Below are positions 14,502 to 62,156 of a stretch of 64,000 nt of DNA, in pieces (positions within the stretch are counted from its first letter, which is position 1; each line of letters opens with the position of its first letter). Origin of the DNA: Wocania ichthyoenteri Th78 (GTDB lineage Bacteria; Bacteroidota; Bacteroidia; Flavobacteriales; Flavobacteriaceae); assembly GCF_000789235.1 (NCBI RefSeq), contig NZ_KN525716.1:3020100-3084099 (forward strand). The letters run 5' to 3'. The position numbers and the translations under genes are program-made. The notes beneath the pieces were generated by a model. The model was given only the letters and a program-made list of their open reading frames with translations, ran no database searches and had not been told where the DNA came from.

Positions 14502-14509
14502 TACTTTTG
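14502..14509 (+). promoter_or_regulatory. -7 promoter element for the riboswitch-btuB transcript
   Basis: TACTTTTG matches the Bacteroidota -7 motif TAnnTTTG and lies about 15-20 bases before the start of the cobalamin riboswitch, so the transcript should begin near 14515. I see no convincing -33 TTG at the right spacing. Confidence 0.5.
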
Positions 14510-14524
14510 CAATGAAATTTGGTT

Positions 14525-14682
14525 TTGTTCACTTCACATGAACGGATTAAAAGGGAATCTAGTGAAATTCTAGAACTGTTCCCGCAACTGTAAGCTATAA
14601 AGCTTCATGTTTAACTTCTTGTCACTGGAATTTTATTTCTGGGAAGACCAACATGAAGACGCAAGTCAGGAGACCTGCCATT
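14525..14682 (+). promoter_or_regulatory. Cobalamin (B12) riboswitch
   Basis: The conserved cobalamin aptamer blocks occur in order: AAAAGGGAAT (14549-14558), GAACTGTTCCCGCAACTGTA (about 14573-14592), GTCACTGG, CTGGGAAGACC, and the B12 box AGTCAGGAGACCTGCC (14664-14679). It sits in the leader of the TonB receptor gene, 85 bases from its start codon. Two small hairpins follow (AAACTTT/AAAGTTT at 14700-14720 and ATGGT/ACCAT at 14725-14743). No T-run terminator is seen, so control of translation initiation is the likelier mode, as expected for repression of B12 receptors by adenosyl- or methylcobalamin. Confidence 0.95.
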
Positions 14683-14764
14683 TTCAAAACAAATAAGTTA
14701 AACTTTCGGGATAAAAGTTTGAGTATGGTTAACACCTTACCATTCCGAGTAATTATTCATTTAA

Positions 14765-31135: not shown

Positions 31136-31212
31136 TTGGGCGTTTTTAACACGCTTTCCGCTGTATCTTTTTCTCGTGCCTCAAAAAAGGATGCCGTTGC
31201 AATCGTTAACGC
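31136..31212. repeat. Dispersed intergenic repeat, family A copy 2
   Basis: TTGGGCGTTTTTAACACGCT at the left, CAAAAAAGGATGCCGTTGCA and ATCGTTAACGC at the right. It shares the ends and the AAAGGATGCC block with the copy at 59401-59577. It is the first part of a composite repeat region that fills 31077-31360, with no real gene in 30933-31389. Confidence 0.6.
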
Positions 31213-31281
31213 ACTTTTTTGTTAATTTATGGTTAAAAGCGAAATTCTTGGTACTTTTGGAAAGATTCGTTTAATATTGAT

Positions 31282-31360
31282 CGGATATAAACTGTCTGTT
31301 AATATGGTTTATATCCGCCGTTAAACGAAGTTGTAGTTTTTTTTCTGACAAAGTCAAGAA
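31282..31360 (+). repeat. Dispersed repeat, family B copy 1 (hairpin plus GTTAAACGAAG block)
   Basis: An 11-bp hairpin (CGGATATAAAC/GTTTATATCCG, 31282-31317) is followed directly by CCGTTAAACGAAGTTGTAG, an eight-T tract and CTGACAAAGTCAAGAA. GTTAAACGAAG (31320-31330) equals 11 bases in the loop of the IS110 leader hairpin (60981-60991). Confidence 0.65.
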
Positions 31361-55714: not shown

Positions 55715-55780
55715 TTATTGTTGCTGTAATATTTATTGGTAAAATTTTAACTAATTGTTTTCATTTGAAGATGAATTTTT

Positions 55781-55850
55781 ATTGACTTTGTCAGAAAAAA
55801 ATCGCTAACTTAGTTTACCGACGGCTCGACCCTTTTCGGGGTAACACCCA
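55781..55850 (-). repeat. Dispersed repeat, family B copy 3 joined to part of family A
   Basis: On the minus strand the order is: a decayed family A end with GGTGTTACCCC and AAAGGGTCGAGC, then GCCGTCGGTAAACTAAGTTA, GCGA, a T-tract and CTGACAAAGTCAA. The plus-strand CGCTAACTT (55803-55811) is identical to the second guide-like arm in the IS110 leader loop (61004-61012). Lies between the phosphoesterase and glnN. Confidence 0.6.
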
Positions 55851-60306: not shown

Positions 60307-60867
60307 CTAAATTTTAACTGTATTTATTAATTTACTATAGTTTGTAGGATCGATTCGTAAATATGAAGCAATATCTTTCTGTGAAACCATATTTGTCAAA
60401 TGCGGGCTTCTTTTTACAAATTTTTTAAAACGTGTTTGGGTGTTGAAAGCCATTAATTGGTGATGTCTTTCTATAATGCCTATTAAAAACTGTTCTGTGA
60501 TGATTCTAAATAGGGTTTCAAGTTCTCTATGCTCTTTTATTAACTGAGCATGTTTAGAGTAAGGTATTCGTAAGAATGTGCTGTCCGTAATCGTTTCAAG
60601 ATAGTATTTGGAAGGTGTTTGTGTAAAAAAAGATTCTACTATACCGCTAAATGAAGGCGCATAGGCAAAAAACATAACGTGTTGTTTTCCTTCATTTAAG
60701 TAGTATGACTTTTGAATTCCATCTTTTACAAAATATAGATAGCGTTCAGTTCTACCACATTCAGTAATAATTGATTTCCTTGGAACTGAATATTCTGACC
60801 AATGAGAAATGTATTTTTCTAGAATCTCAGTGCTGATATTATAAAACGATGATAAGTATTTTTTCAA
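60307..60867 (-). CDS. Crp/Fnr-family transcriptional regulator
   Basis: A 186-residue regulator. The cyclic-nucleotide-binding fold covers about residues 20-115 (SVPRKSIITECGRTERYLYFVKDGIQKSYYLNEGKQHV). The C-terminal helix-turn-helix is VSQKDIASYLRIDPTNYSKLINTVK. The Fnr-like iron-sulfur Cys cluster is absent. The protein ends soon after the recognition helix, as is usual for this short Bacteroidota subgroup. An IS110 element is inserted 49 bases upstream of its start codon and may have displaced or supplied its promoter. Confidence 0.85.
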   Translation of the reverse strand: MKKYLSSFYNISTEILEKYISHWSEYSVPRKSIITECGRTERYLYFVKDGIQKSYYLNEGKQHVMFFAYAPSFSGIVESFFTQTPSKYYLETITDSTFLRIPYSKHAQLIKEHRELETLFRIITEQFLIGIIERHHQLMAFNTQTRFKKFVKRSPHLTNMVSQKDIASYLRIDPTNYSKLINTVKI

Positions 60868-60884
60868 TTGGATATTTAATTATT

Positions 60885-60917
60885 GTCAACGACTTGACGT
60901 TTTAGTGTTAAACGACT
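60885..60917 (+). repeat. Left half of a split family B repeat at the IS110 insertion
   Basis: Hairpin GTCAA/TTGAC (60885-60898) followed by GTGTTAAACGACT. This is the family B arrangement of hairpin then GTTAAACGA. The remaining half of the repeat is found at 62121-62156, on the other side of the element. Confidence 0.55.
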
Positions 60918-60957
60918 TAAGTTTACTTTTAATAAATTTAATTATTAATCAGAAAGA

Positions 60958-61100
60958 ACAAAAGAGAAGAATAAGGTTAAGTTAAACGAAGAGACTTAGA
61001 TCTCGCTAACTTTGATAATCCCTTCTCTTTTACTACTCAAAATTCGTTCAGTTCTGTGAGACCTAGATTTCGATTTCAAGTTGTTGAAATGAAAGTAGCC
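60958..61100 (+). ncRNA. Candidate bridge RNA (seekRNA) of the IS110 element
   Basis: The 5' non-coding part folds well. A 10-bp stem AAAAGAGAAG (60960-60969)/CTTCTCTTTT (61022-61031) encloses a loop with two guide-like arms: GTTAAACGA (60981-60989), identical to the left flank 60907-60915, and CGCTAACTT (61004-61012), complementary with one mismatch to the right flank 62124-62132. A second structured part (CTACT/AGTAG, 61033-61098) contains TCAGTTCT (61048-61055), identical to the element's right end (62112-62119). This is the target-loop and donor-loop layout known for IS621 bridge RNA. Transcript ends are guesses. Confidence 0.55.
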
Positions 61101-61126
61101 ATGTTCTTTCCAAAAATTCAGTTCTT

Positions 61127-62092
61127 ATGAATAAAGATAGAAAAATTTATGGTATTGACATTAGTAAAGGTGTTTTTGATCTGTATAACGATACGGCAGG
61201 ACATCTTGATTTTAAAAATGAAGAAAAGGGATTTAAGGCCCTATTAAAATCGTTGCCCAAAGACGCATTAGTGGTTATGGAAGCTACAGGTTGTTATCAT
61301 TATAGACTAGCCCAATACTTGCACAATAACAAGGTTTTAGTGTCAGTAGTTAATCCATTATCTGTAAAGCGATTTATCCAAATGAAACTGGCAAAAGTAA
61401 AAACGGATAAGAGTGATGCTAAATTTATTTTTGATTATGCAACAGTAAATGAAGTTCCTTTGTACAGAGCTTTAACCGAGTTGCAAAGTGAATGCCTTCA
61501 GTTGTATCAGTTATTGGATGTTTATATAAAGCAGAGTACGGTAACCAAGAATAAATTGCACGGTGAAAAAGTCTTGGGCATTCCATCAAAGGCTGTTTAT
61601 AATTCACTTAACCGAACTCTGAAGCATTTACAAAAAGAGATCTTGATTATAGAAAACAGGCTTTTAGAGTTGGTAAAACAAGAACAGCAAGAGCAATTAA
61701 CTCTACTTCAAACCATACCAGGTATAGGCCTTAAAACAGCTTTGTTTTTAGTGGTTACTACTAATGGCTTTGAAAAATTTGAAACGGCTTCTCAACTTTG
61801 TAGTTATGCTGGGATTACACCAACGATACGGCAATCAGGAAGTAGTTTGAGGGGAAAAAGTAGAATAAGTAAAGTTGGTAATAGAAAACTTAGGCGATTA
61901 CTTTTTTTATCAGCGTTTTCAGCATGCAGGTACAATAAAGCATGTAAAGCAATTTTTGATAGATTGGTTTTGAAAGGTAAAAGTAAAAAGTTAGCATTAA
62001 TAGCAGTAGCAAATAAATTGTTAAAACAGGCATTTGCTATTGCAAAATCAAGATTACCTTATGACGAAAACTTTGTTTCAAAATTAGTTTAA
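61127..62092 (+). CDS. IS110-family DEDD transposase/recombinase
   Basis: A 321-residue recombinase that moves the element by RNA-guided strand exchange. The N-terminal RuvC-like DEDD domain shows YGIDISKGVFDLY (first Asp), ALVVMEATGCYHY (Glu) and KTDKSDAKFIFDYA (Asp pair). A coiled-coil linker spans about residues 120-190. The C-terminal Tnp domain has TIPGIGLKTALFLV, then GSSLRGKSRISKVGNRKLRRLL, where the catalytic Ser lies. The frame is intact and of normal length, so the element may be active. Confidence 0.95.
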   Translation: MNKDRKIYGIDISKGVFDLYNDTAGHLDFKNEEKGFKALLKSLPKDALVVMEATGCYHYRLAQYLHNNKVLVSVVNPLSVKRFIQMKLAKVKTDKSDAKFIFDYATVNEVPLYRALTELQSECLQLYQLLDVYIKQSTVTKNKLHGEKVLGIPSKAVYNSLNRTLKHLQKEILIIENRLLELVKQEQQEQLTLLQTIPGIGLKTALFLVVTTNGFEKFETASQLCSYAGITPTIRQSGSSLRGKSRISKVGNRKLRRLLFLSAFSACRYNKACKAIFDRLVLKGKSKKLALIAVANKLLKQAFAIAKSRLPYDENFVSKLV

Positions 62093-62120
62093 AAAAGACT
62101 TGTTTTTTAACTCAGTTCTT

Positions 62121-62156
62121 CTTAAGTTATCGTTTTTTTTATCACAAAGTCAAGTA
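62121..62156 (+). repeat. Right half of the split family B repeat
   Basis: CTTAAGTTATCGTTTTTTTT then ATCACAAAGTCAAG. It matches the latter half of copies 1 and 3 (T-tract followed by ACAAAGTCAA). Confidence 0.6.

Follow-up and report, generated by a model that had tools for sequence, protein, structure and literature searches.

An IS110-group lineage with a putative bridge RNA at attC-like cassette sites of Flavobacteriaceae

The genome of Wocania ichthyoenteri Th78 (RefSeq assembly GCF_000789235.1) contains an insertion sequence (IS) of the IS110 group within a stretch of 64,000 nucleotides of contig NZ_KN525716.1, hereafter the window. The window corresponds to C1:3020100-3084099, where C1 coordinates are those of the whole contig; positions without this prefix are those of the window. 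Comparison of the element with its relatives makes it highly likely that it belongs to a lineage targeted by a bridge RNA to attC-like cassette sites, and that the clade of the window copy has been re-aimed at a dispersed repeat, here called family B. The first loop of the RNA would carry the target guides and the second would pair with the element's own ends, and the DEDD recombinase, together with the RNA, would carry out the strand exchange that takes the element, in circular form, into matching DNA. The target sites would be part of an integron-like system of the Flavobacteriaceae, with one-gene cassettes that have complementary ends and lie near a tyrosine recombinase resembling XerA and integron integrases. 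The window copy and its sister have changed guides (GTTAAACGA^AGTTAGCG in the window), which would aim them at family B, a dispersed and shortened attC-like repeat. We also lean, with less assurance, towards the wider view that most Flavobacteriaceae carry such an unrecognised integron-like system, with a recombinase lacking what we take to be the IntI additional domain, and that this IS110 lineage exploits it through its bridge RNA and has been re-aimed at least once at a dispersed derivative of its sites.

The element, its leader and its guides

The transposase of the element matches the Pfam profiles DEDD_Tnp_IS110 (1.7e-18) and Transposase_20 (1.4e-22) and the NCBIfam profile NF033542, 'IS110 family RNA-guided transposase' (215.2 bits; cut-off 140). 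The gene is preceded by a non-coding stretch of 211 bp (60916-61126), as in IS110-type elements, and the element is filed as a member of the IS110 group. Relatives were pooled from 29 public-genome loci, from loci of 397 family genomes (56 of which, counting the host's own, held a match at 1e-60) and from 47 further stretches, giving 103 element copies, 97 of them distinct. The copies compared mostly start with CTTAAGTTT and end with CAGTTCTT, or near variants of these; the right end was not located in 8 of 88 copies, and the insertion point is consistent with uninterrupted sites such as TTATAGCCATTGTTGTGC. By this comparison the right junction of the window copy falls at 62120/62121 (CAGTTCTT^), with CTTA standing before AGTTATCG; the flank matches given in the earlier note are as it read them, and the junction is the part that had to be moved. 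The host genome also contains a second intact copy of the same lineage (L002, C1:997743-998702, 73% identity), two distant IS110 genes and a left-end remnant at C1:2929548-2929626.

The 10-bp stem proposed for the leader, AAAAGAGAAG (60960-60969) with CTTCTCTTTT (61022-61031), can be read in the sequence. Taken on its own, the RNA of the window copy does not fold exceptionally well (z-score -1.36; 19 of 200 shuffled sequences fold equally well), and a search of 60850-61130 against Rfam at a lax threshold returned a single antisense match to SpF43, of 27.9 bits against a cut-off of 70. Covariance support in homologous elements was looked for and is present. It comes from an alignment of 39 leaders, drawn from 43 non-redundant ones after L139, L140, L151 and L153 had been dropped by hand and L092 kept. 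The aligned leaders share six helices forming two internal loops; 98.4% of the cells of the consensus are paired, and both sides have changed in 15 of the 31 pairs. Such double-sided changes number 89, against 18.9 in shuffled versions and at most 14 in slid ones, and none of 500 shuffles matched the alignment on any of five measures.

The left arm of the first loop equals the left flank, as had been claimed: GTTAAACGA is present at both 60907-60915 and 60981-60989. The right arm, CGCTAACTT (61004-61012), is likewise complementary in eight of nine bases to AAGTTATCG (62124-62132). Within the window alone these matches are weak; allowing up to one mismatch, GTTAAACGA occurs 32 times in it, compared with 23.0 times (standard deviation, SD, 4.5) after shuffling, and 4 of 100 shuffles reach 32. 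It is because of the comparison with relatives, and not of the window by itself, that the match between leader and flank stands above chance. From the 97 distinct copies we removed five without a left end, four with gaps in the guide and two of less than 40% identity, which left 86 copies with 71 distinct guide/flank pairs; copies with misjudged ends (e.g. L140-L142 and L129) were retained. Across these pairs, left guide and own flank agree at 7.48 of the 10 positions; shuffling gives 5.64 (SD 0.15), and the largest of 20,000 shuffles 6.31. When collapsed to 33 guides, the values are 7.55 and, for the shuffles, 5.41 (SD 0.22). Mutual information between guide and flank is maximal at position -5 (1.27 bits). 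The right guide, compared in 53 pairs, matches at 89-96% at positions 1-4 and at 52% at position 5.

The shuffles preserve composition and not relatedness, and the best control is therefore the presence of two guides within one genome. In the host (G000), the window copy (L001, guide GTTAAACGA) matches its own flank at 9 of 10 positions and the second copy (L002, guide TATACACG) at 8 of 10; in genome G016 both L152 and L153 match theirs at 9 of 10. The arms of related elements, when checked against their own flanks, match on the left side above chance over the sample of 71 pairs. The earlier note had cautioned that AAGTTA and TAACTT in the two arms can pair with each other; as a whole explanation, such self-pairing does not account for the covariation of guide and flank across the relatives.

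The left guide of the second loop, TCAGTTCT, fits the right end of the element: in this register 21 distinct pairs agree at 7.29 of 8 positions, and other registers give 1.4-2.2. The loop mostly tracks changes in the right end (C to A in L045-L047; C to T in L034, L035, L037 and L097). Exceptions are L075, which shows no tracking, several copies with an unmatched T/A difference, and two distant elements with a poor fit, L151 and L152. With two covarying loops, left guides that track their flanks and a donor loop that matches the element's own right end, the original reading of the leader is supported, namely that it would encode a bridge RNA, expressed and acting by the known mechanism.

Cassette sites and the neighbouring recombinase

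Forty-nine of the 84 tested relatives are inserted beside the 3' box of attC-like palindromes of ∼134 nt. In these elements a partner arm of the form YAAC-N3..11-inner box lies upstream of the insertion, mostly 118-125 nt off, whereas shuffled flanks gave 6.2 such cases (at most 12 in 50 runs) and a reversed box gave 5. The uninterrupted sites were listed in 41 rows (one empty), and 35 of them were aligned. The aligned sites, of ∼134 nt, have YAAC near the 5' end, TATG, then the TTATA-box, T and GTT near the 3' end; since the search pattern required YAAC and TGTTR, invariance among the 35 proves nothing. Among 117 matches to the covariance model built from these sites (hereafter R1), AAC and GTT are both at the expected place (±2) in 111.

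At an expectation value (E) of 0.01, R1 found 42 sites in the host genome and up to 137 elsewhere, 14 of 15 genomes being positive, and at 1e-6 at least one site was found in 132 of 149 family genomes, with at most 22 candidates scored per genome. The scan of elements with R1 covered 50 of the 97 distinct ones. A site ending inside the element was detected in 22 of these, at an identical offset in 21, and another site lies in the flank of 15 more elements, among them L042 and L048, which also matched near the junction and went unscored as their left ends were unset. Of the other sites, 43 could be oriented, and every one of them has the orientation of the element. The guides of most of the lineage would read the invariant part of the site, that is, the inner box (TATACAC, TATAGCC or TATATAC) plus T-GTT; they skip the variable bases of the cassette ends, so that one guide would fit very many cassettes.

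Seven array regions were chosen for an adjoining recombinase gene. In the host array the gene, for a protein of 388 amino acids (aa), is followed by 12 sites within 13 kb. In the seven arrays all 117 sites are antiparallel to the recombinase gene, the first site lies 0.5-3.9 kb from it (the arrays having been picked for nearness), and the median spacing of sites is 822 bp. The longest open reading frame (ORF) runs in the direction of the recombinase in 87 of 110 intervals and in the opposite direction in 9, while 14 hold no ORF of 60 aa; from the ORF stop to the next site the median distance is 7 nt. In five of six further single-contig genomes with the recombinase, a site lies within ∼12 kb on its 3' side and in the expected orientation, and 30 of the 81 sites of the six genomes, as counted from the listing, are at most 50 kb from it.

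An integron cassette has two mutually complementary ends, which in the circle had made up a single site. Here, the ends of neighbouring sites that face each other, and so bound one cassette, show perfect complementarity at five variable positions in 85 of 100 cases (mean 4.59), counts that are not fully independent owing to duplicated cassettes; in the control, the two ends of one palindrome do so in 3 of 111 (mean 1.85, against 1.83 for random pairs). Where an IS-interrupted site has a following site in the flank, the right-hand cassette keeps complementary ends in 23 of 32 cases, and these IS110 copies therefore sit at cassette boundaries. In the host array (L166, C1:1157001-1177000) four ORFs of 205 aa, two of 278 aa and two of 196 aa recur with repeated spacing, as if cassettes had been duplicated. 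At the gathering threshold, Rfam searches of three array loci yielded no family except one Flavo-1 RNA (RF01705, 59.1 bits), located at L167 11775-11859 on the minus strand, within a stretch that has cassette sites.

Homologues of the host recombinase at 1e-70 are present in 49 of the 149 family genomes, one in each. Its best NCBIfam match is NF040815 (XerA; 'site-specific tyrosine recombinase/integron integrase'), with 221.8 bits over a cut-off of 220; the integron integrase profile TIGR02249 gave 209.5 bits (cut-off 265), XerC 187.5 and XerD 183.2. The recombinase has no counterpart to positions 180-239 of TIGR02249, which we take to be the IntI additional domain, and an IntI search of the host genome returned only recombinases below the cut-off, with none above it in 14 control genomes either. 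The cassette system is called integron-like here rather than an integron because this IntI feature was not found. The presumed catalytic residues are invariant in 30 homologues, and the best sequence matches in the PDB are 4a8e and 5hxy. When a structure model (mean predicted local distance difference test, pLDDT, 83.8; predicted template-modelling score, pTM, 0.61) was compared with known folds, XerA came first by E-value, whereas by query TM-score the integron integrase 2a3v (0.45-0.53) exceeded XerA (0.37-0.42), and lambda and Tn1549 integrases also reached 0.53; the modelled fold does not decide between XerA and an integron integrase. The position of the gene suggests that the recombinase may move the cassettes, with the sites presumably recognised as a folded strand. 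In 23 of the 49 cases the recombinase gene is on the minus strand, at most 5 kb from the first base of its contig and with its 3' side towards the break, as might be expected if assemblies tend to break at repeated cassette sites.

Family B and the window copy

A direct-repeat search of the window gave chance-like families only, among the 20 listed, and family B came from a pattern search. It is a real dispersed repeat, as had been proposed: the arm matches to other copies, GTTAAACGAAG at 31320 and AAGTTAGCG at 55811 (minus strand), are both present, 15 further copies were examined in the host genome, and the guide reads their conserved 3' arm. The accompanying suggestion that the repeat offers many safe landing sites holds for the availability of sites, but the genome has only one intact GTTAAACGA-guided copy besides the left-end remnant.

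The sample read comprised 40 listed copies and the two window sites. Typical copies run YAATG, GGATATG ... TTATATCC, GTTAAACGAAGTT, a T run and CTGACAAAGTCAAG, with the boxes in the same order as in cassette sites and a shorter middle. The tail is free of ORFs of at least 70 aa in 11 of 12 copies checked; one of the 11, L057, does have an ORF across its palindrome. The 18-base guide matches the 15 other host copies at a median of 14 bases. In the tree, L001 groups with L070 (support 100/99), nested among TATAC-guided elements, which would most simply be explained by one switch of guide. Family B looks like a derivative of the larger class of attC-like cassette sites.

CTTA follows GTTAAACGA in 3 of 16 host family B sites, the interrupted one counted (window 62121-62124, L235 and L244), against none of 26 copies in sister genomes (Fisher p 0.049). 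The four bases may be an excision footprint, a natural variant or the result of copying between palindrome arms; the footprint reading is not adopted because the opposite arm of L235 carries matching bases. Two other repeats were seen beside or within family B. One, of ∼60 nt, lies at 31152-31213, next to the first window copy, and has dozens of matches in the four genomes of the genus. Genome G006 is of the same genus as the host genome, and its element, flanks included, is identical to that of Wocania arenilitoris. The other, a mini-repeat of ∼24 nt (ACTGAAATAAATTCAGCACATGTG-like), has gone into family B copies at two separate places; its carriers are L249, L250, L255, L257-L259, L262, L263, L267 and the left flank of L070.

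Features of the window and of the host array. Positions are those of the window unless prefixed with C1.
Feature	Position	Strand	Basis or remarks
IS110-group insertion sequence	60916..62120	+	Ends ^CTTAAGTTT ... CAGTTCTT^; relatives and uninterrupted sites in relatives
IS110 DEDD transposase/recombinase, 321 aa	61127..62092	+	Pfam and NCBIfam profile matches
Putative bridge-RNA region in the alignment, with the target loop ahead of the donor loop	60952..61126	+	Consensus structure and compensatory changes
Target-binding stem-loop	60960..61031	+	Outer stem 60960-60969 with 61022-61031; inner hairpin 60991-60994 with 61001-61004; helices 1-3
Left target guide AGTTAAACGA	60980..60989	+	9/10 identical to own left flank; class-wide guide/flank test
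Right target guide CGCTAACT (reads AGTTAGCG)	61004..61011	+	Alignment register with relatives
Donor-binding loop	61033..61098	+	Helices 4-6; register test
Left donor guide TCAGTTCT	61048-61055	+	Equals right-end sequence 62112-62119
Left target half GTTAAACGA	60907..60915	+	Sequence; family B copies
Right half of the target, with the conserved tail of family B: CTTA + AGTTATCG + T run + ATCACAAAGTCAAG	62121..62154	+	Sequence; family B copies
Family B copy, attC-like short palindrome and conserved tail	31271..31358	+	R1 weak at 31271-31328, E 0.13
Partial family B copy, 3' arm and tail	55776..55825	-	After 3' end of the 55861-58047 gene
Tyrosine recombinase, 388 aa, host genome	C1:1157320-1158483		Adjoins 12-site array

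Elsewhere, Rfam at the gathering threshold found over the whole window only a tRNA and a cobalamin riboswitch, the latter at 14503-14696 on the plus strand (113.4 bits).

Alternative explanations and known systems

A number of observations, given here together with the alternatives, tell against our reading. In the window copy, the right guide matches its own right flank at 3 of 8 bases in register, four extra bases (CTTA, 62121-62124) stand at the right junction, and no palindrome is recognisable to the left (no R1 match at 60850-60915). In the relatives, left-guide positions -10 and -1 hardly track the flank, right-guide positions 6-8 match at just 18-46%, and the right guide is nearly invariant, so that its TGTT match is beyond testing by covariation. 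At TATAC-type junctions target and donor have at most a T in common, and the fit of the donor guides is settled for the left one only. The leader might be an ordinary structured 5' region, involved for instance in translational control, its resemblance to the flank reflecting shared AT-richness or descent. This would agree with the weakness of both the 9-mer match and the fold in the window alone, with arms partly able to pair mutually, and with a guide/flank shuffle that ignores relatedness. The guide-flank comparisons largely contradict it, however: guide and flank co-vary in the 71 distinct pairs, within a single genome two copies differ in their guides, with each guide fitting the flank of its own copy, and the second loop matches the element's own end. 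We hold an ordinary leader to be extremely improbable.

The remaining points concern the sites. Thirteen of the 50 scanned elements, the window copy included, are without an R1 site at the junction or in the available flank; genome G123 has the recombinase, yet none of its 13 sites is near (none within 100 kb); sites are present in 84 of 100 genomes without a recombinase homologue at 1e-70, and one of the 49 recombinase-bearing genomes is without sites; and in the host's own array only 4 of 8 scorable pairs of cassette ends are perfect. The sites in genomes without the homologue and the imperfect pairs of the host array, like the distance of many sites from the recombinase and the existence of family B copies as dispersed singletons, could suit passive dispersed repeats, similar to repetitive extragenic palindromic (REP) sequences or miniature inverted-repeat transposable elements, the IS simply preferring palindromes. 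Passive repeats would not predict the contrast in complementarity between cassette ends and the ends of one palindrome, though, and the uniform orientation of the sites, with mostly one co-directional ORF per interval that ends at the site, also argues against them, so that we regard this alternative as improbable. More weight must be given to the idea that family B is unrelated to cassette sites and that the guide drifted to just any frequent repeat. R1 scores family B copies weakly (the four best E values are 0.0023, 0.007, 0.13 and 0.38), and the 5' arm of many copies reads YAAT instead of YAAC. On the other hand, the box order (GGATATG ... TTATATCC, GTTAAACG) is the same, and in one copy (L056/L244) the family B tail comes directly after a complete R1 site (E 1.2e-15); an unrelated origin thus appears rather doubtful to us, and we prefer to see in family B a derivative of the cassette sites.

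Bridge-RNA targeting, insertion into REP sequences and attC targeting by IS1111-type elements are already known, as the relevant passages of PMC11208160 and PMC11187229 describe. The first of these gives the bridge RNAs of IS621 and other IS110-group elements, with the guide names and polarity used for them (Durrant et al. 2024), the second the IS1111-type, attC-targeting ISKpn4, ISPst6 and ISPa25; further references on such elements are Tetu & Holmes 2008 and Post & Hall 2009. The present target, attC-like cassette sites of Flavobacteriaceae, is new to us: in the literature covered, with subscription papers and preprints outside its scope, no such Flavobacteriaceae integron or arrays and no IS110 element of this lineage were found described. 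The corresponding part of the IntegronFinder 2.0 survey (PMC9024848) reports such cassette systems almost nowhere in Bacteroidetes, where earlier finds had been confined to integrase-only elements; its own addition is a single complete integron of Salinibacter, alongside those in Chlorobi and Ignavibacteriae. PMC8618304 names Bacteroidota among the phyla with integrons, and PMC2426708 counts the Bacteroidetes/Chlorobi group with those that have intI genes. Should the recombinase indeed move the cassettes, it would represent a second kind of integrase for integrons, and the Flavobacteriaceae would hold a large hidden pool of accessory genes. For guide evolution this is a ready data set: it has dozens of natural pairs of guide and target, among them those of a genome whose two copies are aimed differently, as well as a re-aiming with a definable place on the tree.

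The lineage resembles IS621 and the IS110 group, as presented in the passages of PMC11208160 on these elements, in its DEDD recombinase, its guide RNA at the left end, the order of target loop before donor loop, the reported guide polarity and, for IS621 with its REP targets, insertion into multi-copy palindromes. It differs from IS621 in having a Bacteroidota host and an attC-like cassette site or a dispersed derivative as target, and in that its junctions show no evident CT core. With ISKpn4, ISPst6 and ISPa25, as they appear in the corresponding text of PMC11187229, it has in common that insertion sequences with guide RNAs are placed at one end of attC sites; in those elements the non-coding region is downstream of the gene, whereas the present lineage has it upstream (IS110 type), with cassettes that lie close to a recombinase that is no canonical IntI. 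That recombinase is akin to XerA and XerC-like proteins in its best NCBIfam match (NF040815) and in PDB 4a8e and 5hxy, and is set apart from XerA and XerC by its place near cassette arrays and an extra N-terminal domain. Integrons differ from the present system in their integrase, since the recombinase described here lacks the region that we take to be the IntI additional domain, has ∼95 aa extra at its N-terminus and is encoded co-directionally with the cassettes. What the system has in common with integrons and chromosomal cassette arrays is the single-gene cassettes, the GTT/AAC boundary, the two-box palindrome with unequal spacers and the complementary cassette ends.
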